Source: Bosea sp. 29B
GTDB lineage: Bacteria; Pseudomonadota; Alphaproteobacteria; Rhizobiales; Beijerinckiaceae
Length of the DNA: 64,000 nt
Direction of reading: 5' to 3'
Assembly: GCF_902506165.1 (NCBI RefSeq)
Contig: NZ_LR733817.1
Location: 1,286,255 to 1,350,254 of the forward strand
Within the stretch, counting starts at the first letter, position 1. The number at the start of each line of letters is the position of its first letter. Below the pieces are notes generated by a model. The model saw nothing but the letters and a program-made list of their open reading frames with translations. It had not been told where the DNA came from and searched no databases. This document shows, piece by piece, positions 2,246 through 23,690 of this stretch. The position numbers and the translations under genes are program-made.

Positions 2246-2314
2246 ATGAGCTTCAAGCTCACCTTCCAAGTCCGGATCGGCAAGTGGAGACTGACACTCT
2301 CCATGAGCCGGTAA
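2246..2314 (+). CDS. Possible 22-residue phage microprotein
   Basis: ATG 2246 is preceded by an excellent Shine-Dalgarno, AGGAGGA at 2235-2241, itself just after a leader hairpin and a plausible promoter. The product, MSFKLTFQVRIGKWRLTLSM followed by SR, is short, basic and amphipathic with alternating hydrophobic residues. It could be a true small protein or a leader peptide controlling the downstream XRE gene (79 bp away). No homologue is recognised. The strong translation signal is the main support. Confidence 0.5.
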   Translation: MSFKLTFQVRIGKWRLTLSMSR

Positions 2315-2659: not shown

Positions 2660-2684
2660 TCGACGGGGCTGCGCGGGCTTTTTT
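2648..2684 (+). terminator. Intrinsic terminator after the XRE gene, probably bidirectional
   Basis: AGCCCCG (2648-2654) pairs with CGGGGCT (2664-2670); an alternative pairing uses GCGGGC at 2673-2678 directly before a run of six T. On the other strand the same hairpin is followed by CTTTGTTTT, so it can also end the leftward NusG-like transcript that converges here. Confidence 0.75.
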
Positions 2685-2738
2685 CAAGCTCCCGCCGGAC
2701 AGGTGATTTCAAATCACCGCCCGGCTCGTGCTCATGGG

Positions 2739-3296
2739 CTACGCCACCTTTTCGAGCTTGGCAAGCGACGTCGTGATGCGGCCTGCAAGACGGGCATGCT
2801 TGATCACGATCTCGATGCGATGCTCGGTCGAAGCGCTGGCCACCTCCGCCAGGAACCCGGCGAACGGCCCTTCCATCACCTGCACCTTGTCGCCGCGCTT
2901 GGGCAAGCGGCTCGCCATCGCCTGGCCGTCCCTGATCCTGATGCACTCCGGATCGTCGAAGGTGCCGGCGTCTTCCGCCTGGCGTAGCGCCGCGATGATG
3001 TTGGCCGGCACCGGCAACGGCGCGCGGCTTCCGGCCGGCTGAATCATCCATTCGACGCCGATGGTGCGCTTGCACTCCGACATAAGCTTGCCGAGCTGCT
3101 CATTCGGATCGAAGCCGACGAAGAGATATCTGCCTAGCGCCGGTCTCATCACAACCTCCTTGCGGCGAGCGTGCGTGACGATCGTCTGCCGCATCGGCAG
3201 ATAGACGCCGAACTTCTTCCGCTCCAGCGCGTCGGCGCAGATGCGGTCCTGCTGGAACTTGGTGTGGATGATGAACCAGGAGTGATCTTGGAACAT
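2739..3296 (-). CDS. Phage NusG/RfaH-like transcription elongation factor
   Basis: 185 residues from ATG 3296, with AAGGG upstream. The N-terminal NGN domain starts with SWFIIHTKFQQDRICADALE and contains the typical ALGRYLFVGFD strand near residue 65; the C-terminal KOW domain is at PKRGDKVQVMEGPFAGF near residue 135. Such proteins bind RNA polymerase and alter pausing or termination. A phage copy, between the late packaging genes and the repeat cluster, is best explained as an antitermination or operon-specific factor. The longer ORF start at 3377 would add a non-conserved tail and was not used. Confidence 0.85.
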   Translation of the reverse strand: MFQDHSWFIIHTKFQQDRICADALERKKFGVYLPMRQTIVTHARRKEVVMRPALGRYLFVGFDPNEQLGKLMSECKRTIGVEWMIQPAGSRAPLPVPANIIAALRQAEDAGTFDDPECIRIRDGQAMASRLPKRGDKVQVMEGPFAGFLAEVASASTEHRIEIVIKHARLAGRITTSLAKLEKVA

Positions 3297-3419
3297 GCGG
3301 CGCCCTTCATGTTGGGCACTCGCGAAGCAGTCGGAAGGCGGCGATACCGTGATGCCAGAGCCGCCAGCCATGGGCAAGCGGCTGGTTTAGGATCGTATAG
3401 GGCGAAACTGGCCGCTGTC

Positions 3420-3676
3420 AGGTGTCGGCGCCCTTATCGAGTGATCGAGGGTTCGTTCGCATCTGTTCTCAAAACAGCAAAAACCCCCTAAGAAGCCGCC
3501 GACACCTGCTAAGTCATTGATATTAGAAATCACATATAATGATTTCAATAAGATAGGTGTCACCTAGGTGTCACCGTAGCTGTCACCGCCGTCGACACCT
3601 AGAACACATTTTCGCCATGATGCGCTTCAGGTGTCACCGCTGCGTCGACACCTAGATGACACCTGCGTCGACACCT
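3420..3676. repeat. Iteron-like repeat cluster around an AT-rich core (candidate phage origin)
   Basis: About ten copies of AGGTGTC or its complement GACACCT: forward at 3420, 3555, 3566 and 3629, a degenerate one at about 3581; reverse ending at 3507, 3600, 3653, 3664 and 3676. Two head-to-tail copies (3555, 3566) are 11 bp apart, one helical turn. The outer pair AGGTGTCGGCG (3420-3430) and CGCCGACACCT (3497-3507) is a perfect inverted repeat; CGTCGACACCT occurs three times. Between 3508 and 3554 the DNA is AT-rich and has its own inverted repeat GAAATCA / TGATTTC (3526-3546). This is what an iteron origin with an unwinding element looks like. It fills the gene-free stretch 3297-3674, which also contains TGTTCTCA at 3464-3471. 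A multi-operator promoter for the NusG-like gene is the alternative. Confidence 0.7.
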
Positions 3677-3968
3677 ATCGCGGTGCGGAAATGATGCTGG
3701 TACCGCGGATTTCGATCGGCAGGTAATGCGGGAAGGGCTGACCGCTACCGGTCAGATAGGTGCCGAGCAGGAGGCTGAATTGCCGTCCGCCGCATTTCGA
3801 GCAGCGACAGCGCGCCATCAGTCGAGCGAGCTGCATCCTGGCCTCGATGATCCGGAACTCGTCGAAGCGCACCTGCCCTTTGTGGAAGCACAGGATACAC
3901 TCCACGCGGAGCCATACCCAGCCCATGGATATGGCTTCTGCAGGCGTCTGCGGCGGTTGTTCGGGCAT
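3675..3968 (-). CDS. Small phage protein with a putative Zn-ribbon
   Basis: 97 residues from ATG 3968 (GTG 3983 would add five). Two cysteine pairs, CILC near residue 27 and CRCSKCGG near residue 55, suggest a zinc-binding fold. No family is recognised. Its stop codon overlaps the last iteron (3666-3676), and a perfect palindrome (3991-4007) lies just before its start, so it may be controlled together with the neighbouring repeats. Function unknown; a role in replication or regulation is possible from its location only. Confidence 0.55.
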   Translation of the reverse strand: MPEQPPQTPAEAISMGWVWLRVECILCFHKGQVRFDEFRIIEARMQLARLMARCRCSKCGGRQFSLLLGTYLTGSGQPFPHYLPIEIRGTSIISAPR

Positions 3969-3990
3969 GGAAGCGGGCGACACGGGTCAC

Positions 3991-4007
3991 GTTCTCAGAT
4001 TGAGAAC
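3991..4007. promoter_or_regulatory. Perfect palindrome GTTCTCA-GAT-TGAGAAC (operator-like)
   Basis: Seven-base arms and a 3-bp centre, directly upstream of the Zn-ribbon gene. The half-site TGAGAACA recurs at 16253-16260 and, reversed, at 3464-3471, all in intergenic control regions of the prophage. This suggests a third regulator target distinct from the CI/Cro sites. Confidence 0.5.
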
Positions 4008-4066
4008 ATAACAGGAACAATCAGGTCGTGGGAGTCAAGGGAGCGTGGTCGACGAAGCCGCGGCGA

Positions 4067-4744
4067 TCAGGGCGCCGCTGCCCACTCGGGAGGGCGATTG
4101 ACGACTTTGCCGCCTGGCAAATTGAGGAAGTCCGGAAACTGGGAGTTCGAAAGATGATTATTCGTGATGTGGTGGCAGAAATGAGCCTCTCTGGCGAGAC
4201 TTGCAGACGGCTTCGGCACAGGCGTCAGAAGGCCGATCGTCTTTCCGACCTCCGATCGAACAAGGCGAATTGGCTCGACGAGATCGGTATCATTGGTGAT
4301 GATCGCAGCTACATCGAAGCGGTCGTTATATGCATCTGAGAGCAGGTGCGAGGCCAGATTGACATCGCTTCCTTTCTCTTCGGTTTTGTGAACGCGTACA
4401 ACGTTTGGCCATGGTAGGAATGGCGGCTTGGCGTTTGGTTTCGCAGGATCTAGATCGGGATGGACAATCCCGGCCCATGTCTTGCTAACCAAGAAGTTGC
4501 CGAAGTGGCTTTCGATCTCGGGAATGGTCGATAACGCGGAGAGATAAGCCTGCTGCCTGGCTGGCGTCGTTGGGTCAAATCGCCCTGAAACGCGAGCTGT
4601 AAAGTACCTGACCTTGATGATTTGATTTTTCGGGCTTAAGACCTGCTTAGCGAGTTCGCAAAGATTTAACCATTTGAACTGCGGCTGGTCTTTCAAAAGC
4701 CTGTAATATAGATTGAACCCATCAACGTAGACGATGGTCCTCAC
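4067..4744 (-). CDS. NYN-domain (PIN-like, LabA/DUF88 type) putative RNase
   Basis: 225 residues. GTG 4744 is chosen because the conserved N-terminus IVYVDGFNLYY follows at once; a longer ORF start reads through hairpins. Acidic residues expected for metal binding are visible: D in YVDGFN (residue 7), D in KGSDVNLASHLL near 129, and the pair in IITNDTDLVEPIR near 149. NYN proteins are predicted metal-dependent RNases. Codon use is less GC-rich than that of its neighbours and the gene has its own promoter (4836-4863), so it resembles a moron, perhaps expressed in the lysogen. A protective role against other phages is only a guess. Confidence 0.82.
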   Translation of the reverse strand: MRTIVYVDGFNLYYRLLKDQPQFKWLNLCELAKQVLSPKNQIIKVRYFTARVSGRFDPTTPARQQAYLSALSTIPEIESHFGNFLVSKTWAGIVHPDLDPAKPNAKPPFLPWPNVVRVHKTEEKGSDVNLASHLLSDAYNDRFDVAAIITNDTDLVEPIRLVRSEVGKTIGLLTPVPKPSASLAREAHFCHHITNNHLSNSQFPDFLNLPGGKVVNRPPEWAAAP

Positions 4745-4766
4745 GGCTTCCGGCCCCTGATAAAGC

Positions 4767-4821
4767 AAAGGCCGCGCCGGATTTCTCCTTTGCGGCCTTT
4801 GGGCCCGCAGCACGCTGCGGG
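4767..4821 (-). terminator. Two hairpins between prim-pol operon end and the NYN gene
   Basis: CCCGCAGC / GCTGCGGG (4804-4821) is a perfect 8-bp stem, and AAAGGCCGC / GCGGCCTTT (about 4767-4799) a 9-bp stem followed on the minus strand by GCTTT. They can end the long early operon, whose last gene stops at 4987. They also lie downstream of the NYN promoter, so they would be in the NYN leader, where partial termination is possible. The T-run is weak. Confidence 0.5.
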
Positions 4822-4986: not shown

Positions 4987-7272
4987 CTAGGCCATCATGA
5001 CTCGCCGCGACACGCCGCCGGCGACCTTCCGCTCATCGACGACGATCACGCCTGAGCGCGACAGGGCATCGAGGGTGTTTCGGAGATCATTCGCGAAGCG
5101 GAAATGTCTCTGCATCGCCCGGTGCAGTTCCCGCATGCGGACGCCGCGCGGCCCGGCCGAATGGACCTTGGCAAGCAGCTTGCGCTCGAATTCTGCTGCG
5201 CCCAACGGGTCGACCATGAACCGGCCGGCGTCGCCGATAAGCCGCTCGGTCGACTGCCAGACGAGCGCTGCGGCCCAATCCATATCGTCGCCTGTCACGG
5301 TCGGGATATCGGGGTCGCGACCGCAGGCGCGGATCGTGGCGCACCTGACGGCAATCTCCGCCACGCGGGCCATGAACTGGCCGGTCTCCGCATCGGCGTC
5401 GATGCGCCGCTGCGCCGTCGACGACAGGTCGCGATAGATGTCCTCGGCTCTCTGGTCCTGCCACCTTGCGTGCAGGCCTTCAGGATCGGGGGCGGTGTTC
5501 TTGCAAACGTAGCCCGAGAGATTGCCGCGCCCGGTGGTGCCTGCGCGATAGAGGCGCATCATGCCGTCGCGCAGACTGTCCGGGACGTCTCTCAGCTTGC
5601 GTCTGGGCTCCACCTCGGCCACGCGCTCGCCGCCGTCGATGACGAGGAAGCGGTTCAGGAAGCCGTTGACGACGTCGCGGCCGCGCAGCGCCTCGTAGAG
5701 CTCTTCCGGCGTCGTCGGGCCGTAAAGGGACAGGCAGGGCGCCGCGATCTCCACGCTCGACGTGCTGGCGTACGCCGGGGTCCGCACGGTAGCAAAATTG
5801 GAACCCCAGAGCGAGCGCAGGACCATGCTGATGCCTTGCTCATGCGTAGACGCGCGCGGGTGCGACAAGCGTTTCAGCAGGGCGCCGAACTCATCCTGGG
5901 CGCAGATCGTCAGCGGCGAGTTGGCGACGTGCTTGACCAGCGCTGACATCGACATGAACTGCGACGGGCCGACATGACGCTGCAGTTCGGCCGCGCGCAT
6001 CAGCCGGTCGATCGCGTCGAGCTGGTGCTGCTTGCCGCCGCCGGTCGGATAGGTGGCGATGACATAGAGCTGAAGCCCGGCACCTGTTGGCGTCGCCATC
6101 CGCCTGCCCAGCAGCGTGGCGCACAGCGGCAGCGCGGCCGATAGCGCGAGCCGTCTATTCGGTCTCCGCGAGGTCGCGACGATGAAATCAATCACTTCGC
6201 CTAGCACGCCGTCGACATGCGTCAGCGCCTCGTCGATCGGCGGCGCCTCGCCCTCCTCGTCCTCCGGATCATCGTCGGCATCGTCGACAACCTCGCCAGT
6301 ATCGGCCACGATCGTCACGCCATTGACCTTCGTCAGCCTGATCTCGATCTCAGGGCCGCTGTCTGCGTAGCCCGCACGATCATCCAGCGCGGCGCGCGGC
6401 TTCTTTGACCCGCTCGCGAAGCCGGAGGCGATCGTCTTGCGGATCTCGGGCTGTCTCAGTCCGCACGCGAGCGCCGCCTCGGTCAGCGCGATATCGACTT
6501 CCGATTGGCCGCCCCATCCGCTGGCCACCATCTGCGCAAGGCTGAAGGCGGCGATGTTGAGGGTATGGTTGCGCTGCCCCTCGCCTGCCTGAGTGACCTT
6601 ACGGACCTCATCGGCAAGAGCGGCCTCGAATGCTGCCCGCTCGCGCGCGCCGGTCTCAGGCCTATGAGCCGGAGCGGCGGCTGGAACGCGACTAGTCGCG
6701 ATGATCTCAGCCGAGCGAGCGTCGTCGACTACCCTGCTGGCCAGCGTGGTTGCAAGCCACTGCGGCAGGTCTGGGATGGCATCGGCCTGCAGAGCCGTGA
6801 CCAGGCCATCGCCAAGGGGATGATAGTTGCGGCCGTCCGGCAGCTCCGCCCCTTCAGCGATGACGTAGCCGCCGCTGCCGCGCACGTCGATCCCGGCCGG
6901 GAGCGTGCCGCGGGCGTTGGTCAGCGCGCCATCCTGCCGGAAGAACACGTGCCGGCCCGTCGATGGCGTTTCCACCGTCGGCCAGTCGCGAGGGTCGTCA
7001 CCATTGTCCCTTGCGAGGGTCTCAAGCGCGATGACGCCGTCATCCTTGCCGTGGCGGTCGCAGTCGATCGCGACGAGCTTATGTCGGCCGAGCTCGAACG
7101 CGGGCAGCGACGAGGGCCACCGGCGCCACCACGCCTCGATGCGGCGAGGATCGGTCGATGCCTCGTCCTTCCAACGCACGCCTGGCTGCGGGCGCTTGGT
7201 CTGGTTGCATGGGAAGACCGCTATGCCGAGGTCGGCAAGACGTTTTGCGGCGGTGAGATTGGGGTTGTCCAT
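4987..7272 (-). CDS. Bifunctional primase-polymerase fused to a DUF3987-like helicase domain
   Basis: 761 residues. The N-terminal archaeo-eukaryotic primase (prim-pol) domain, residues 1-180, shows the catalytic pair in LVAIDCDRHG, then TGRHVFFRQ and GIDVRGSGGYVIAEG. A middle segment resembles the PriCT linker. The C-terminal half (from about 350) carries a P-loop ATYPTGGGK near residue 403 and an acidic CAQDEFG near 455, as in DUF3987 proteins of mobile elements. Such fusions prime and unwind DNA at element origins. It is the last gene of the leftward early operon and, with the DnaN homologue, forms the replication core. Start ATG 7272; no strong ribosome site. Confidence 0.88.
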   Translation of the reverse strand: MDNPNLTAAKRLADLGIAVFPCNQTKRPQPGVRWKDEASTDPRRIEAWWRRWPSSLPAFELGRHKLVAIDCDRHGKDDGVIALETLARDNGDDPRDWPTVETPSTGRHVFFRQDGALTNARGTLPAGIDVRGSGGYVIAEGAELPDGRNYHPLGDGLVTALQADAIPDLPQWLATTLASRVVDDARSAEIIATSRVPAAAPAHRPETGARERAAFEAALADEVRKVTQAGEGQRNHTLNIAAFSLAQMVASGWGGQSEVDIALTEAALACGLRQPEIRKTIASGFASGSKKPRAALDDRAGYADSGPEIEIRLTKVNGVTIVADTGEVVDDADDDPEDEEGEAPPIDEALTHVDGVLGEVIDFIVATSRRPNRRLALSAALPLCATLLGRRMATPTGAGLQLYVIATYPTGGGKQHQLDAIDRLMRAAELQRHVGPSQFMSMSALVKHVANSPLTICAQDEFGALLKRLSHPRASTHEQGISMVLRSLWGSNFATVRTPAYASTSSVEIAAPCLSLYGPTTPEELYEALRGRDVVNGFLNRFLVIDGGERVAEVEPRRKLRDVPDSLRDGMMRLYRAGTTGRGNLSGYVCKNTAPDPEGLHARWQDQRAEDIYRDLSSTAQRRIDADAETGQFMARVAEIAVRCATIRACGRDPDIPTVTGDDMDWAAALVWQSTERLIGDAGRFMVDPLGAAEFERKLLAKVHSAGPRGVRMRELHRAMQRHFRFANDLRNTLDALSRSGVIVVDERKVAGGVSRRVMMA

Positions 7273-7299
7273 GATGCGCCGCAGGCAGGCGTTGCGGGA

Positions 7300-7722
7300 T
7301 CAGAACGGACACTCACCGTTCTGCAGCTGTTGCTTGACCGAGGCGCCGAAGGCAACCAGCGCGGCCTCGACCTGAGCAGCCATAGGCGCCCTCAGGTTGG
7401 CAAGAGCAGAATTGACGTGCTCCGGCGAGGCGGCGGACAGATCGCGCACGCCTGCGTCCCACATGGCGCCCATCACCTCGTTGACGATCGCCTCGGTCAC
7501 CTTCTCAGCGGATGCCTCGCAGGCGCGTTGCTCGAGCGCGGTCAGTTCATTCGACTTCATGGTGACGAGCACTCCCGTGCAATCTGAGCAGGTGCGGTTG
7601 TTGCAGACCCATGCGACGACCGGCTTGTTCGGGCCTTCGTAGACGCCAAGCCCAACCGCCATGCGGCTGCAACACATGCAGAGCGCAGGATTTTTGGAGC
7701 GTTGGAGAAGGATGCCGGTCAT
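7300..7722 (-). CDS. Hypothetical phage protein with N-terminal cysteine motif
   Basis: 140 residues. Cysteines in ALCMCC (about residue 14) and NNRTCSDC (about 41) could form a zinc site; the C-terminal 80 residues are predicted helical. I recall DUF6511-like phage proteins with similar N-termini but cannot confirm membership. ATG 7722 overlaps the upstream gene by 4 bp (ATGA), so translation is coupled. It is inside the replication operon; function unknown. Confidence 0.65.
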   Translation of the reverse strand: MTGILLQRSKNPALCMCCSRMAVGLGVYEGPNKPVVAWVCNNRTCSDCTGVLVTMKSNELTALEQRACEASAEKVTEAIVNEVMGAMWDAGVRDLSAASPEHVNSALANLRAPMAAQVEAALVAFGASVKQQLQNGECPF

Positions 7723-7925
7723 GTCCGCGATCCTGACGGCGATTCGGCATGGTCAAATGTGTCAGTGCCGGCCCGTTTTTCGCGCTCGCTTTCCTTCTCG
7801 ACCTGAAGCGCCAGCGTATCCATGGCGATGAGCGTATCCTGGCTGGTCAGGCCGCCATGGGCTTCGTCGATCCGGAAGAAGCGGAGAGCGCGGCGCGCGG
7901 CCGAGAGCAGGGTTTCCTCGCTCAT
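7719..7925 (-). CDS. Hypothetical small phage protein
   Basis: 68 residues, mostly helical and charged, with no recognised motif. It overlaps the dnaN-like gene upstream (7922-7925) and the next gene downstream (7719-7722) by 4 bp each, which is the main evidence that it is translated. No function can be assigned. Confidence 0.6.
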   Translation of the reverse strand: MSEETLLSAARRALRFFRIDEAHGGLTSQDTLIAMDTLALQVEKESEREKRAGTDTFDHAESPSGSRT

Positions 7926-9034
7926 GCCGCGATATCCTGCGGCAGGTCGTGCTTCAGAGCGCCAGCCCTGGCAGGCATGACGACGCCGATACGAGACCCA
8001 TCACCTTCGATCCGGAGAGGATGACCGTCGCCGCCGGTCTTCACGACGACCTGGCCGCCGACAAAGGCGAGACCCTGCATCAGCAGGCAGGACTGGAACT
8101 GCAGGTCAAAGCGCCGATGCGTCTTGCCGCCGAAGGCGATCGAGATCAGCTCATTGTCCATTCCGCTGGCACTGCCGACGAGCCGCGAGCCGTCATAGCT
8201 CAGGCCGCAATAGCGCTTCCCGAACGCCTCCAGCCGCGCGAGCTTGCGATTGAAGGCGCCGGCATCGATCTCCAGCAGCGGCGGCGTATCGGCGGCAGGC
8301 ACGACGCGGTTGTAGTCAGGGTATTTGCCGTCGATCAGCTTGCTGGTCAGTTCGAAACCCGCCGTCTTGAACTGAACCTTCGCAAAGGTGAGCGCGACGT
8401 CGAGCGCATTGGCGCCCTTCGCATGGGCTGCGATCCAGTTGACCGCCCGGCGCGGGACGATGAACTGGCCGCAGTCGCCGTCATCGACGCGATCAGCCGC
8501 GCCGACGATCATGCCCAGCGTGTGACCGTTGGTCGCCACCGTGCGGGCCGTCTCCATGCCGACGTCGATGCAGACGCCATTGAGGTAGTAGCGCGTCTCC
8601 TCGGTGGAGATGAACGGGATCAAGTCCGCGAGCGAGGACGGCGGCATGGTGAGATTGAGCGGAGCCTTGCCTATATCCCAGCCTGAGCCGGGCCAGTCCG
8701 CGATTGGCAGGCTAAGGAACGAAGCGCGGGCATCGGTCATGTCGATGCGGACTCGATTGTCGGGCGCGGCGCCAATCCGGATCATCTCGCCGTCACTGAG
8801 ATGGCGCACGATCTTGGCCAGCGGAGCGAACGGCACGACGAAGCAACCTGACCCGGTCGACGCGACCGGCCAGCGCAGATACAGGTCGAGGTCGGTCGCC
8901 TCGACATAGGTCTGATCGTCGACCGTGCGGATGACGATGCAGGTGAGGACCGGGATCGTCGAATGCGTCTCGACAACGCCCCTGCAGGCGATGAGAGCCT
9001 TGCGCAACTCTCCGGCGAGGAAGGTGAGGCTCAT
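7922..9034 (-). CDS. dnaN: DNA polymerase III sliding clamp (beta subunit) homologue, phage-encoded
   Basis: 370 residues, the usual length for DnaN. Diagnostic pieces are present: TEETRYYLNGV in domain 2, IDGKYPDYNRVVP near residue 240 and the C-terminal VVMPARA motif that is part of the partner-binding pocket. The protein forms a ring around DNA and tethers polymerases. The prophage part seen here has no polymerase gene, so this clamp probably loads the host enzyme or recruits other clamp-binding proteins to phage DNA. It differs from a host dnaN by context: it is inside the phage operon, overlapping genes on both sides by 4 bp. Confidence 0.92.
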   Translation of the reverse strand: MSLTFLAGELRKALIACRGVVETHSTIPVLTCIVIRTVDDQTYVEATDLDLYLRWPVASTGSGCFVVPFAPLAKIVRHLSDGEMIRIGAAPDNRVRIDMTDARASFLSLPIADWPGSGWDIGKAPLNLTMPPSSLADLIPFISTEETRYYLNGVCIDVGMETARTVATNGHTLGMIVGAADRVDDGDCGQFIVPRRAVNWIAAHAKGANALDVALTFAKVQFKTAGFELTSKLIDGKYPDYNRVVPAADTPPLLEIDAGAFNRKLARLEAFGKRYCGLSYDGSRLVGSASGMDNELISIAFGGKTHRRFDLQFQSCLLMQGLAFVGGQVVVKTGGDGHPLRIEGDGSRIGVVMPARAGALKHDLPQDIAA

Positions 9035-9513
9035 GCGGCGCTCCTGGCAGGTTCATAGGAAAGGGTTCGGCAATAGGCGCAGTACGGCCCCGGCCCGGGC
9101 GCCGGCTCGCCGCAGAAGCGCTTGGCCTCGAACGGCGTGCCGAGGCTCCAGAGCGGCCAGCGACATTGACCTTCGCGGTGATCGAAGAAGCTGACACCTT
9201 GGCGCTCGATCGGCGTCGGAACGGGCGGCGACGGTGACGGTACGAGGGTAAGCTTGGGCAGCGGCGCCGGCTTGGTCCTTGGCGCAACGAGGCGAACGAC
9301 GCGCTCTTTCTTCGGCGCCGAGACACGATTGAGCTGCAGCTTGCGGGCGCTCCAGCCCTGCCGGTGTGCAAGGCCACAAATTGCGCTGCGCGAGGTTGCG
9401 AAGCGGTGATCGCGATCGAGCGCTTGCGCGACCTGGGAGGCCGAATAGCCCTCCACCTCCCAGAGCCGGCGCGCCTCGGCGATCATCTGAGCGGGCCAGG
9501 GCAGCGCCATCAC
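9031..9513 (-). CDS. gcrA: GcrA-family cell-cycle regulator homologue, phage-encoded
   Basis: 160 residues. The N-terminus has the GcrA helix-turn-helix pattern (RRLWEVEGYSASQVAQAL, then TSRSAICGLAHRQGW near residue 45). The C-terminus has the conserved block QCRWPLW, RFCGEPA and YCAYC, residues 115-150. In alphaproteobacteria GcrA binds sigma70 RNA polymerase and acts at promoters containing methylated GANTC sites. The gene overlaps the methyltransferase gene upstream by 4 bp and dnaN downstream by 4 bp. The pairing suggests that the phage adjusts or imitates the host CcrM/GcrA circuit; that is inference. Confidence 0.88.
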   Translation of the reverse strand: MMALPWPAQMIAEARRLWEVEGYSASQVAQALDRDHRFATSRSAICGLAHRQGWSARKLQLNRVSAPKKERVVRLVAPRTKPAPLPKLTLVPSPSPPVPTPIERQGVSFFDHREGQCRWPLWSLGTPFEAKRFCGEPAPGPGPYCAYCRTLSYEPARSAA

Positions 9514-10412
9514 GCAACCCTCGCCAGCAGATCGGTTGCCGGCCCCTCGCGCTCGGCCTTCTCAAGGTTTTTGACCGCCTGTCGAAAATAGGCGTCCTTG
9601 AGTTCTGTCCCGATAAATCTTCTCCCCATGCGTAGGGACTGGTAGCCCTCGCTGCCGATACCCATGAACGGCGAGTAGACCGTGTCGTCGCGATTGGAAT
9701 AGAGCGTAATCGCTCGCTCGATGACATCGAGCTGAAGCGGGCAAAGGTGCCGCTCATCTTTGTCGTCGCGAACGACCTTGACGTTGAGGACGTTCGTCTG
9801 GTCGACGGTCATCCAGACGGGCGAGGCGATCTCCTGCCATCGATCGACTGGATATTGGTTCGGGTCGTGGACGACCGGGTCAGGGGTCTTGCTGGTCGCC
9901 CCGTCGACAGGCTTCCGGAAGAAAGTCAGGTAGTCCGGCATGCCGGGGCGGCAGCGGCTCGCATCAGTTCGAAACGTCTTGTAGAGCAGGCCATGCGCTT
10001 TGGTCCGCTGCATTTCGACAACGGGATCTTTCCAGATCGTCACCTTGCCGGCGTAGATCCACCCTGCATCTTCATGGGCCTGCCGAATGTCCGAAGGGAA
10101 ATCACGCAGCCCGATCACGCCGTCGCGACTGGCGGTTGTCGGGATATCGCTCGAATGGACAGCAGTGACACGCCCTGGCTTCGTGACGCGGAGGAGGTCC
10201 GTGACCAGCGGAAGATAAGCCGCCCGGAACTCCTCGTAATCAGCGACATTGCCCATGTCGCGCTCACTCTCGCTGTAGACGAAGAGGTGGGCGAAGGGCG
10301 GAGAATAGACGCTGAAATCGACCGATGACGCCGGCATGCCGGCCGTAAATTCGACGGTGTCGACGTTGTAGGCGGCGAAGCGCTCGCCAATCTTCTGATC
10401 AAAGACCTGCAT
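9510..10412 (-). CDS. N4/N6-type DNA methyltransferase (D12/N6_N4_Mtase fold)
   Basis: 300 residues from ATG 10412, chosen because the conserved part begins there; it overlaps the SNF2 gene by 14 bp. The catalytic motif IV is SPPF (VYSPPFAHL near residue 35), and the AdoMet-binding motif I is at VYSPFMGIGSEGYQSL near residue 255, so the motif order is IV before I, as in beta-class enzymes. SPPF occurs in both N4-cytosine and N6-adenine enzymes, so the base modified is not settled. Likely role: protection of phage DNA or control of gene expression with the adjoining GcrA. Confidence 0.88.
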   Translation of the reverse strand: MQVFDQKIGERFAAYNVDTVEFTAGMPASSVDFSVYSPPFAHLFVYSESERDMGNVADYEEFRAAYLPLVTDLLRVTKPGRVTAVHSSDIPTTASRDGVIGLRDFPSDIRQAHEDAGWIYAGKVTIWKDPVVEMQRTKAHGLLYKTFRTDASRCRPGMPDYLTFFRKPVDGATSKTPDPVVHDPNQYPVDRWQEIASPVWMTVDQTNVLNVKVVRDDKDERHLCPLQLDVIERAITLYSNRDDTVYSPFMGIGSEGYQSLRMGRRFIGTELKDAYFRQAVKNLEKAEREGPATDLLARVA

Positions 10413-16284: not shown

Positions 16285-16527
16285 ATGAGTAGCGTGCGAC
16301 CCGCTCAATCCCCCAAGCCGACGCTAGCGGACTACGCAGCGCTGTTTATTCGATGCGAGGACTGCGGCAACGCAAAGCGCATGGGGCCTGAGACCCTCTC
16401 GTCGCTTTATGGAAAGGGCTTCCAGTGCGATGCGGATCTCAAGCCGAAGCTCATCTGCCAGCCATGCAAGGACCGCGGCGCCTATGGCCGCAACCTATTC
16501 CTCATCCCGACTTTCAGGCGCGGCTAG
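16285..16527 (+). CDS. Small four-cysteine phage protein next to the repressor
   Basis: 80 residues from ATG 16285 (AAGG at 16274-16277 is the ribosome site; a TTG at 16279 would add two residues). Cysteines in RCEDCGNAK and KGFQCD plus ICQPCKDRG fit a zinc-binding domain. The gene converges on the CI-like gene (4-bp overlap of stops). Upstream are TGAGAACA and the three GANTC sites. It could be an accessory lysogeny or anti-repressor protein; nothing proves it. Confidence 0.6.
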   Translation: MSSVRPAQSPKPTLADYAALFIRCEDCGNAKRMGPETLSSLYGKGFQCDADLKPKLICQPCKDRGAYGRNLFLIPTFRRG

Positions 16528-17258
16528 GCTAGGCCAGCTACTTCCTGCCAGGGGATGACCCGGAAAACTTGCCGCACTTCGCGCGAATCAAACTCGAGGC
16601 GGCCGAACGGGTTGTACTGCTCAACAATAATCAGTGCGGAGCTTCGGCTGATCAGGTTTTTGATGAACGATTTCCCCGGCTGGCCTTCTTCGGCCGGGTG
16701 CAGTTCGATTACGACATCGTCGCCGATAGCCGGTTTGCGCCGCTCGACATAAACGCGCTCGCCGTCTTTGAATTTTGGCCACATGCTATTGTTGGACACG
16801 CGCAACGCGAAGACATCCTTGCGATGAGCGAGGCCAGGTGGCCGAGGGACCAAGTCAACGACCTGCCCATTCATCTCGAACGCGCTTTCATCGTCGCCGA
16901 AGCCGCCGACGGTAGCACCGAGCTCTTGAATATCGCGGAGCATTTGCCCGACGGCGGGGAGGCGTACATCGCCGCCTTCAAACACCGCATTTGGCTCAAC
17001 ACGGTAGCCAGTCATCTGCGGTGCTTCCTTGGCCGTGAGCGCCAGAAGAACGTCAGACCCGGAGTGCATTTCGCCCCCAAGAATAAGAACGTGCGCCGGT
17101 ACCCCGAGGATCTCAGCCACTCGGACCGCGCGATCCCGCGGGAGCGGCACAGCTCCGGATGCCCAGCGTGACACGTTCTGCCGGCTAGTGCCGAGCTGAC
17201 GCGCCAATTCGCTGAGGCTGATCCCAGCTTTTTCAACAGCTTGCGCGAGCGGCGTCAT
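16524..17258 (-). CDS. CI-like phage repressor (HTH plus S24 peptidase domain)
   Basis: 244 residues from ATG 17258, where the conserved HTH begins. Residues 1-60 are an XRE fold with the recognition helix TSRQNVSRW; residues 120-244 are a LexA/CI S24 domain with the catalytic serine in VSNNSMWPKF and the lysine in KSFIKNL. Such repressors keep the lysogen silent and cleave themselves when RecA filaments form. The recognition helix is the same as in the divergent Cro-like protein, and matching operators exist at 16131-16182 and 17326-17358. A start at 17336 would add about 26 unconserved residues. Confidence 0.92.
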   Translation of the reverse strand: MTPLAQAVEKAGISLSELARQLGTSRQNVSRWASGAVPLPRDRAVRVAEILGVPAHVLILGGEMHSGSDVLLALTAKEAPQMTGYRVEPNAVFEGGDVRLPAVGQMLRDIQELGATVGGFGDDESAFEMNGQVVDLVPRPPGLAHRKDVFALRVSNNSMWPKFKDGERVYVERRKPAIGDDVVIELHPAEEGQPGKSFIKNLISRSSALIIVEQYNPFGRLEFDSREVRQVFRVIPWQEVAGLA

Positions 17259-17320
17259 GGCGCGGGACGCTCGCAAATTGCGACACAAATCGGAACGCAC
17301 ATAATTTGCGACGCTTCCGC

Positions 17321-17358
17321 TTGCGATGTCACTCATGATGTGACATAACGTGTGACAT
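17321..17358 (+). promoter_or_regulatory. OR-like operators and promoter of the Cro-like gene
   Basis: ATGTCAC-N7-GTGACAT (17326-17346) is an inverted repeat with perfect 7-bp arms, and TGTGACAT (17351-17358) overlaps the start codon at 17357. A promoter TTGCGA (17321-17326), 17 bp, CATAAC (17344-17349) is interlaced with the operator. Transcription from it would start at about 17356, giving a leaderless message. The rest of 17259-17320 has two near-palindromes around TTTGCGAC, possibly linked to CI transcription. Confidence 0.7.
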
Positions 17359-17554
17359 GAAACTCGCCGATTACCTCCGGACCCACGACATGAAGCCTTC
17401 CGAGTTCGCTCGGAAGGTCCAATCAAGTCGTCAAAATGTCAGCCGATGGATGCTGGGCCAGGCTGTGCCCCGTCCCGGCGACATGCGCCGGATCACTGAG
17501 GCAACTCGCGGCCAAGTCACCGCGAATGACTTCTATTTGGCGGAGGCCGCGTGA
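17357..17554 (+). CDS. Cro-like HTH regulator
   Basis: 65 residues: one XRE-type HTH, with SSRQNVSRW as the recognition helix. It is divergent from the CI-like gene and has an identical core recognition sequence (SRQNVSRW), the hallmark of a CI/Cro pair reading the same operators. No Shine-Dalgarno precedes ATG 17357 and the predicted start of transcription is at the A of the start codon, so the message may be leaderless. It opens the rightward early operon. Confidence 0.88.
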   Translation: MKLADYLRTHDMKPSEFARKVQSSRQNVSRWMLGQAVPRPGDMRRITEATRGQVTANDFYLAEAA

Positions 17555-22287: not shown

Positions 22288-22656
22288 GTGCTAGCCGCTG
22301 ACGGTTCCGTTACTGCTGACACCCCGCTGCGCCTGTCCACAGCCGCAGAGCTTGCATTTCCGGGCGGGGGGATGAAGGCTGCCGGGCTGCGCAAGGAGCG
22401 TGATGCCGGCCGGCTGGAAACGTGGTTCGTCGCCGGCAAGGAATACACCTCGCTCTCTGCGATCGAGGAGATGTTGAAGCAATGCCGCGCCCGTCAAAAG
22501 GACCGAGGCTCTACCTCCAGCCCGAAAGGCGCGACGACACCGGAACCGTCGTCGACCGCGCCAGCTGGGTCATCCGAGACGGAAACAATAAGCGTCGGAC
22601 TGGCTTCGCTGCTCATGAAATGCGAGCAGCCGAGGAAGCTCTCAGCCAATATCTGA
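22288..22656 (+). CDS. Putative excisionase / small DNA-binding protein
   Basis: 122 residues from GTG 22288 with AGGAGA upstream. The segment LRLSTAAELAFP, AGLRKERDAGRLETWFVAGKEYTSL (residues 15-60) looks like a winged-helix MerR/AlpA excisionase fold: a short HTH then a strand turn. The C-terminal half is low complexity and overlaps the integrase gene by 175 bp in another frame, so only the first 65 residues are well supported. Location next to int supports the excisionase idea. Confidence 0.55.
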   Translation: MLAADGSVTADTPLRLSTAAELAFPGGGMKAAGLRKERDAGRLETWFVAGKEYTSLSAIEEMLKQCRARQKDRGSTSSPKGATTPEPSSTAPAGSSETETISVGLASLLMKCEQPRKLSANI

Positions 22657-23690
22657 CCGAGAAGCACAATCCTGTGGTCGCCGTTGCGCTGTCGAGCGGT
22701 GACCCGAAAATTTACGATGTCCTCGCGCTGTATCTCGAACAGCGAGTTGAGAAACAGGCGCGGCCGTCAGAGGCGCGAGCGAGGATCAAGCGGCTCGCCC
22801 TATGGTGGAAGGAGCGCTGCTGCTCAGAGATCAAGCCGAGCACCTGCCAGGCTTACGCGAAAGAGCGCGGAGATGGTGCGGCGAGGCGCGAGCTCGAGGA
22901 TCTGCGCGCGGCCCTGCGGCATGCCTGGAAAGAGCGAGTCCTTCCACACCCTATCCCTGTCGAACTGCCGCAGGCCGGCCCGCCGCGTGAGCGCTGGCTG
23001 ACACGATCCGAGGTCGCACGCCTGCTCTGGGCGGCGTGGCAGTTGCGCGAGAAGCAAAAGCGCGTGCGGCGCGGCGACGATGGCGGGCCGCCGCTGGAGA
23101 CAGCCCGCTACACGGCCAGGCATGTCGCTCGCTTCATTCTCGTTGGCCTCTACACCGGCACCCGCGCCGGTGCCGTCTGCGCGGCAGCTATCCGCCCGAC
23201 TGTCGGCCATGGCTATGTCGACCTCGATCGCGGGGTCTTCTATCGCCGGCCACCGGGCACTCGGGAGACGAAGAAGCGCACCCCGCCGGTCGGGCTTGAT
23301 CAGCGCTTGTTGGCTCACCTGCGCCGCTGGGAGGCCAAGGGCTTGTCGAAGAGCTTCGTGGTCGAATGGAACGGCCAGCCGGTCGAGCGCGTACACAAAG
23401 CCTTCCGGGCGGTACGCGAAGCGGCCGGCCTTGGCGAGGACGTCACGCCGCACATCCTCCGCCACACGGCCGCGACCTGGGGCATGCAGAACCGAGCTGA
23501 TCCCTACGCCCTGTCCGGCATGCTCGGCATGACGCTGGAGACGCTTCAGAACGTCTACGGCCACCATCACCCCGACCATAACCGCGAGGCCGCTGCTGCC
23601 ATCGCCAAAAGGCCAAAGCGCGAACTCCGGACAGATATGGACAGAAACGCAGGAACAGAACGAGATCCGGAATTTGCAAAAGCCCGATAG
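22482..23690 (+). CDS. int: Tyrosine recombinase, phage integrase
   Basis: 402 residues from ATG 22482; a longer ORF start at 22422 lies in the excisionase-like gene and is not conserved. Catalytic residues are visible: R in TGTRAGA (about 235), H-x-x-R in HILRHTA (about 335), H/W region and the tyrosine in VYGHHHPDH (about 367). It integrates the phage at the tRNA-Pro gene; attR lies only 38 bp after the stop. The stop-proximal tail is charged. As the last gene of the rightward early operon it would be expressed with early genes unless it has its own promoter. Confidence 0.93.
   Translation: MPRPSKGPRLYLQPERRDDTGTVVDRASWVIRDGNNKRRTGFAAHEMRAAEEALSQYLTEKHNPVVAVALSSGDPKIYDVLALYLEQRVEKQARPSEARARIKRLALWWKERCCSEIKPSTCQAYAKERGDGAARRELEDLRAALRHAWKERVLPHPIPVELPQAGPPRERWLTRSEVARLLWAAWQLREKQKRVRRGDDGGPPLETARYTARHVARFILVGLYTGTRAGAVCAAAIRPTVGHGYVDLDRGVFYRRPPGTRETKKRTPPVGLDQRLLAHLRRWEAKGLSKSFVVEWNGQPVERVHKAFRAVREAAGLGEDVTPHILRHTAATWGMQNRADPYALSGMLGMTLETLQNVYGHHHPDHNREAAAAIAKRPKRELRTDMDRNAGTERDPEFAKAR

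Follow-up and report, generated by a model that had tools for sequence, protein, structure and literature searches.

A repeat array beside a PrimPol-helicase gene in Bosea sp. 29B as a probable iteron origin of a temperate phage

A 257-bp repeat array in a 64-kb window of Bosea sp. 29B DNA (the window being the whole stretch analysed) raises two questions: what the array does, and which protein recognises it. The original prediction took it for an iteron origin of a phage, saw no initiator among the phage genes, and proposed recognition by the neighbouring Zn-ribbon protein or another unlisted protein. The first part of this proposal is well supported by comparison with relatives. The second part is replaced here, as the bifunctional primase-polymerase/helicase (prim-pol) is itself the likely initiator and the array changes with the helicase/C-terminal half of that protein. 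We put the probability at roughly 80% that a temperate phage starts its replication at the array and that its PrimPol-helicase, rather than the Zn-ribbon protein, recognises the site. The features concerned are collected in Table 1.

Table 1. Positions of the array, its parts and the genes discussed in the text, in window coordinates.
Feature	Position	Strand	Remarks
Iteron array, candidate replication origin	3420..3676	.	exact and near-copy units
Exact AGGTGTC/GACACCT units	3420, 3501, 3555, 3566, 3594, 3629, 3647, 3658, 3670	+, -, +, +, -, +, -, -, -	
Near-copy unit	3578-3584	+	one mismatch
AT-rich core, candidate melting site	3512..3553	.	42 bp, GC 0.21
Homology end point	3400		DNA match to L002 and L003 both ceases; 20 bp outside array
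Stretch without DNA homology to L002	3401..6026		helicase/C-terminal half of prim-pol, NYN, Zn-ribbon, array
Bifunctional primase-polymerase/helicase, putative initiator	4987..7272	-	761 aa; PF09250; phrog_3022 in helicase half; weak C-terminal winged-helix match
Helicase and C-terminal half of prim-pol	4987..6240	-	417 aa; 70% identity to L039; iteron sequence seems to follow this half
NYN-domain protein between prim-pol and array	4067..4813	-	no match in 150 fetched loci
Zn-ribbon-like protein (name from the original prediction)	3675..3983	-	no Pfam/PHROG match; no match in 150 fetched loci
NusG-like antiterminator	2739..3296	-	185 aa from its ATG; kept in L002 and L003 though array is not
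Phage clamp	7922-9034		
S24-type CI-like repressor	16524-17426		
Integrase	22422-23690		

The array contains nine exact AGGTGTC/GACACCT units, in both orientations, and one near-copy, in agreement with the ten or so units originally counted. Exact AGGTGTC occurs 13 times on the two strands of the window, where 3.95 would be expected, and nine of the 13 copies fall inside the array; the 64 kb holds no second cluster. The iteron can be written as AGGTGTCACC. An 11-bp phase had been described and steps of 11 bp do occur, but they alternate with 12-bp steps, both in the units at 3554/3565/3577 and in the unit starts at 3647/3658/3670. The exact inverted pair and the triple repeat that had been noted were both recovered, the former as a perfect 12-nt match (3419-3430 against 3497-3508) and the latter as CGTCGACACCT at 3590, 3643 and 3666. 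The AT-rich core, at first given as 47 bp, is slightly shorter (Table 1) and carries the predicted perfect inverted repeat with 7-nt arms (3526-3532 and 3540-3546). Two exact units stand to its left and seven exact units plus the near-copy to its right, and the lowest-GC 40 bp of the array lie below every random segment of the same length drawn from the first 20 kb. A repeat score that uses no preset motif places the two 1-kb scoring windows of the array at the top of 187 (94 kb), though not far ahead of the next (23.6 and 22.8 against 21.4). The array has a copy number of one in its own genome, which was also the sole match when 200 genomes were searched with the array DNA; a 21-bp double unit was absent from all viral contigs searched, and the window contains no Rfam family at gathering score. 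As predicted, no likely gene fills the stretch. The overlaps are confined to its edges, where the stop of the Zn-ribbon-like frame (3675) takes in two bases at the end of the final unit, and a plus-strand ORF called mechanically (3171-3491), in part antisense to the NusG-like gene, reaches into the left end.

Reading leftwards, the gene order is prim-pol, NYN, Zn-ribbon-like ORF, array, NusG-like gene, terS and terL, so that two genes and about 1.3-1.4 kb lie between prim-pol and the array. Beyond terS/terL the chromosome carries portal and head-morphogenesis genes, and across 7.5 kb this late region shares 89.6% DNA identity with the 38-kb viral contig belonging to L002. Because of that identity we regard the element as a phage and not as a satellite; the few ORFs scanned there included no identified major capsid or tail gene. 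The terminase pair, the portal and head-morphogenesis genes and the late-region match together argue against the status of a phage-inducible chromosomal island (PICI). The NusG-like protein found its own genome only in a search of 397 genomes at E 1e-20 and had no match among genome contig records or among phage records, and in the 111 loci first fetched it matches six entries, which represent three distinct contigs. The helicase half of prim-pol likewise matched its own genome alone in 385 genomes at E 1e-30, although there are relatives (P0002-P0007) that share 81-96% identity with this half.

The core of the argument is what appears to be a natural swap of the helicase half together with the array, and it rests on three single contigs. 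Two of these, L002 and L003, encode NusG-like proteins 95% and 94% identical to that of the window. Window DNA matches L002 over 2667-3400 and 6027-9696, with nothing between, and position 6027 lies inside prim-pol; the match to L003 also ends at 3400 and restarts at 7300, past the prim-pol gene. AGGTGTC is absent from L003 and occurs once in L002, distant from the place of the array, and on the 3' side of their prim-pol genes both carry different arrays, each surrounding an AT-rich tract. According to the original prediction, an origin would be refuted if close relatives shared the replication genes but had lost the repeats. The repeats are indeed gone from L002 and L003, but both differ in the helicase half or in the whole prim-pol gene and both carry another array. 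A search of related prophages for the same array near prim-pol had also been suggested; arrays do lie near their own PrimPol-helicase genes, but those of L002 and L003 differ in sequence. Compared with the window protein, the PrimPol half of L002 is 80-100% identical per 40-residue bin to residue 360 (one bin 65%), and beyond residue 400 the helicase/C-terminal half is 17-47% identical per bin. In L003 the array occupies +30 to +266 from the prim-pol stop. The third contig, L039, is the converse case. It belongs to a genome (G206) of the same family as that of the window, its helicase half is 70% identical to that of the window, its iteron is AGGTTGTCACC, and its array stands directly 3' of prim-pol, as in L003. 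By the matrix measure the iterons of the window and L039 are only moderately alike, with a similarity of just 0.53 because an extra T interrupts the match (window and L002, 0.37; median of all pairs, 0.34; 95th percentile, 0.66). The helicase half and the array are exchanged jointly, and since L002 swaps both and L039 keeps similar versions of both, the iteron seems to follow the helicase/C-terminal half of prim-pol. The comparison with L002 amounts to a natural domain swap that points to this half as the specificity part.

A wider comparison was made with 31 loci picked for having an array, after three of 34 motif loci with a score of 14 or less had been dropped; motif regions were set by hand for the window, L002, L061, L071 and L087. 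By Pearson, iteron similarity correlated more strongly with similarity of the C-terminal 420 aa (0.595) than with that of the N-terminal 330 aa (0.470), but the order was reversed by Spearman (0.240 and 0.365, respectively). Partial Mantel tests gave r 0.44 for the C-terminal part when the N-terminal part was controlled for (0 of 2000 permutations), and 0.15 for the N-terminal part when the C-terminal part was controlled for (48 of 2000). As the loci share ancestry, the correlation with the C-terminal part supports the proposed specificity and does not prove it.

The PrimPol half of the window protein matches ORF904 of plasmid pRN1 by profile (E 4.6e-6), and weak profile matches (E 0.005) suggest a C-terminal winged helix. 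PF13148 is precomputed in many relatives and PF09250 is the only family given for the window protein itself, the motor of which is DUF3987-related. From the anatomy of the array and its position beside PrimPol-helicase genes in many relatives, we infer the following course of initiation. The PrimPol-helicase would recognise the array through its C-terminal, probably winged-helix, part, with copies binding the iterons on both sides of the AT core. A helicase ring would then assemble at the array and the core would melt, the fused PrimPol domain would make the first primer, and the phage clamp and a polymerase would extend it.

Two other functions for the repeats are both improbable, and about equally so. 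They might form an operator array that binds a phage regulator, such as a partner of the NusG-like protein or the XRE or CI-like repressor, and controls the leftward NusG/terminase unit. The array does lie a short way upstream of the NusG-like gene and overlaps six promoter-like sites, where 0.6 are expected (in 3000-4100), and another array-bearing phage contig, L097, has a distant NusG-like match (9047-9595; 27.6%, E 8e-6) about 320 bp past prim-pol. L002 and L003 nevertheless retain the NusG-like gene with its leader from 3400 onwards but have a different array, the array of L003 adjoins prim-pol at about 1 kb from the NusG-like gene, and the few NusG matches in the 111 loci further weaken a link to that gene. 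The nearest exact AGGTGTC is, moreover, over 700 bp away from the XRE gene and over 7 kb away from the CI-like gene. An operator of the NusG-like gene and a set of CI operators were accordingly rejected as candidates.

The array might instead be a secondary cis element, for instance one resembling crr of phage P4 or a site for copy control or partition, to which the same initiator binds while replication starts elsewhere. P4 offers a precedent, as crr lies just 3' of alpha and the annotated origin, with more type 1 repeats, is 2.1 kb past the alpha 5' end; GC skew also shows no clear turn at the array, which is only 3.4 kb from the window edge. Set against this, the array ranks first in 94 kb by repeat score, has an AT core and is without a second AGGTGTC cluster in the window to serve as the start site, and the origins of SaPIs and gram-negative PICIs are directly downstream of the initiator gene in passages of PMC7581432 and PMC6092414. 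Recognition of an origin by the Zn-ribbon or NYN protein is very improbable, for although L002 differs throughout the stretch that holds both genes and the array, neither protein has a tblastn match (E 1e-4) in the 150 fetched loci (111 plus 39), L039 with its similar iteron included. The XRE protein was also rejected as initiator, its sole match in the same search being L156, a Rhizobium phage with one AGGTGTC and no prim-pol annotated in the stretches read.

An origin recognised by the PrimPol-helicase is of a kind already known from satellites and P4; what is new here is its occurrence in a phage, the kind of motor and the exchange as a cassette. The SaPI origin is recognised by the C-terminal domain of Rep (passages of PMC6092414 and PMC7581432), and gram-negative PICI origins consist of an AT-rich region between two iteron sets (PMC6092414, in part). 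The window resembles the pri-rep-ori arrangement of SaPIs and PICIs in that its array follows prim-pol on the 3' side, within the stretch exchanged along with part of that gene (in L003 and L039 the array comes directly after the gene), and its layout is PICI-like, with two exact units, a 21% GC core, then seven exact units and a near-copy. It differs in being a candidate origin, in belonging to a phage with terminase, portal and head genes, in combining PrimPol with a DUF3987-related motor, and in having two genes between initiator and array. P4 alpha is a fused primase-helicase (PMC7145576, in part). In P4 (NC_001609) the crr iteron region starts about 50 bp 3' of alpha, on the same side of the initiator gene as in the window, and the same score finds both. 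P4 differs in its iteron, in its much shorter gene-to-array distance and in having a separate, distant region annotated as origin. The SCCmec Cch2 helicase binds AAGTG direct repeats just 3' of its gene through its C-terminal domain (a passage of PMC7581432), which is similar in the helicase and in the repeats downstream of its gene, but it has three iterons only and its primase is a separate protein.

Iterons of the lambda O type of origin lie within the initiator gene, whereas the window array is outside prim-pol. The proposed origin of pRN1 begins 54 bp downstream of the ORF904 gene and is a stem-loop, and the authors argue for a stem-loop, not iterons, in phage BIP-1 (passages of PMC4234260). 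The likeness to pRN1 lies in the PrimPol half, as noted above; the arrays described here are iterons, in contrast to that stem-loop. The array region also folds more strongly than 200 shuffles (z -5.7), for which its inverted units alone would suffice. PrimPol-PV1 primases are fused to DUF3987, DUF927, RepA, VirE and D5 motors, and a C-terminal winged helix has been speculated to find the origin in the PolpTN2-like family (PMC5862659). Further context is found in parts of PMC7145576, PMC8718748, PMC10111431 and PMC6563490.

The generality of the arrangement was examined by comparing the best repeated 9-mer at -250 to +750 around the gene 3' end with that in control windows of the same size from the same locus. 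The first sample comprised 40 hand-chosen places, minus L078 (no blast hit) and plus six viral contigs. In 20 of these 45 relatives the gene end exceeded all controls (1.72 expected). A second sample came from a phylum-wide draw in which PF09250 occurred in 40 of 348 genomes; PrimPol matches with an open frame of at least 600 aa were used, one hit with an internal stop and places already used were left out, and three of 37 loci were dropped where the gene end or the next 500 bp ran off the contig. Here 10 of 34 loci passed (1.39 expected), or 8 of 30 (1.27 expected) without four loci from G082, a genome also in the first sample; in addition, the iteron of L147 equals that of L042. The strict criterion was missed by 25 of the 45 relatives and 24 of the 34 further loci, among them L002, where 2 of 32 controls are equally high. 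By the same score P4 crr, the positive control, ranks first. In ten named phages other than P4, a pair count put the locus-wide top window within -400 to +600 of the gene end once (Ssp-JY40); three of the ten (L082, L084 and L087), chosen after that scan, were given the 9-mer test, in which Birtae and Ssp-JY40 rank first and pCB2051-A does not. For 20 of 46 loci, against 3.08 expected, a scan for pairs matching at seven of eight positions had its top window in the same interval; the remaining 26 include the window analysed here, whose array is 1.4 kb away from the gene end.

Iterons differ between most loci, and an AT dip within the lowest 5% of random segments is present in 17 of the 31 array loci and missing from 14. 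A Pfam scan covered 37 distinct proteins, of which 26 came from loci passing the strict test, one from the window, two from loci falling short of that test (L002 and L066) and eight from loci in which it gave no array. The motors seen with arrays were DUF3987, AAA_25, D5/DUF5906, DUF927 (L117 only) and VapE (L131 only); those of the DUF3987 and AAA_25 kinds also occur among loci without an array. L044 has a strong array, and its 470-aa protein matches the helicase part alone, with no PrimPol domain.

These results lead us to favour, by a narrow balance, a more general rule. In bacterial mobile elements, PrimPol proteins are joined to motors of at least five kinds (DUF3987, AAA_25, D5/DUF5906, DUF927 and VapE, with a single array locus each for DUF927 and VapE), and whichever the motor, an iteron origin private to the protein may often follow directly on the 3' side of the gene. 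Motor, C-terminal DNA-binding part and origin may be swapped between phages as one cassette, so that replication identity can change while the primase stays. Among the full-text literature matches listed, judged by title and abstract opening and including few subscription papers, none was recognised as stating this rule for phages across motor types. For a phage group in which none was apparent, the window supplies both a likely initiator and a likely origin. If the rule is true, the origins of many prophages and islands could be read directly from sequence, and DUF3987, described in parts of the literature as an uncharacterised, predicted helicase, would become testable as a self-loading origin helicase.

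Several minor observations were made at related loci. In the Vibrio phages L079 and L088 the strongest repeat cluster is about 2.1 kb 3' of prim-pol, inside a gene annotated as TolA protein or fibrinogen binding protein; because they are located inside downstream coding genes, these clusters are probably coding repeats and not an origin. In the window the XRE gene and its flank (2104-2666) break the homology between terS and the NusG-like gene, where L002 has different sequence over about 0.5 kb and L003 no more than about 25 bp. A 22-aa ORF (2246-2314, plus strand) lies upstream of this XRE gene, and 4 of its 22 residues are changed in Rhizobium phage RHph_TM3_3_3 (L156 from 3017). The counterpart there adjoins an HTH gene (47.5% match to the window XRE protein) with a NusG-like gene nearby, and some 140 bp separate the small ORF from a tRNA-Met gene (L156 2799-2874). 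A further stretch of the same phage (L157; MN988468.1, 42000-53608) has one AGGTGTC and no prim-pol annotated in the stretches read, and in it DUF1376, DnaA-like and HNH genes precede the NusG-like gene and a spacer of about 30 bp.
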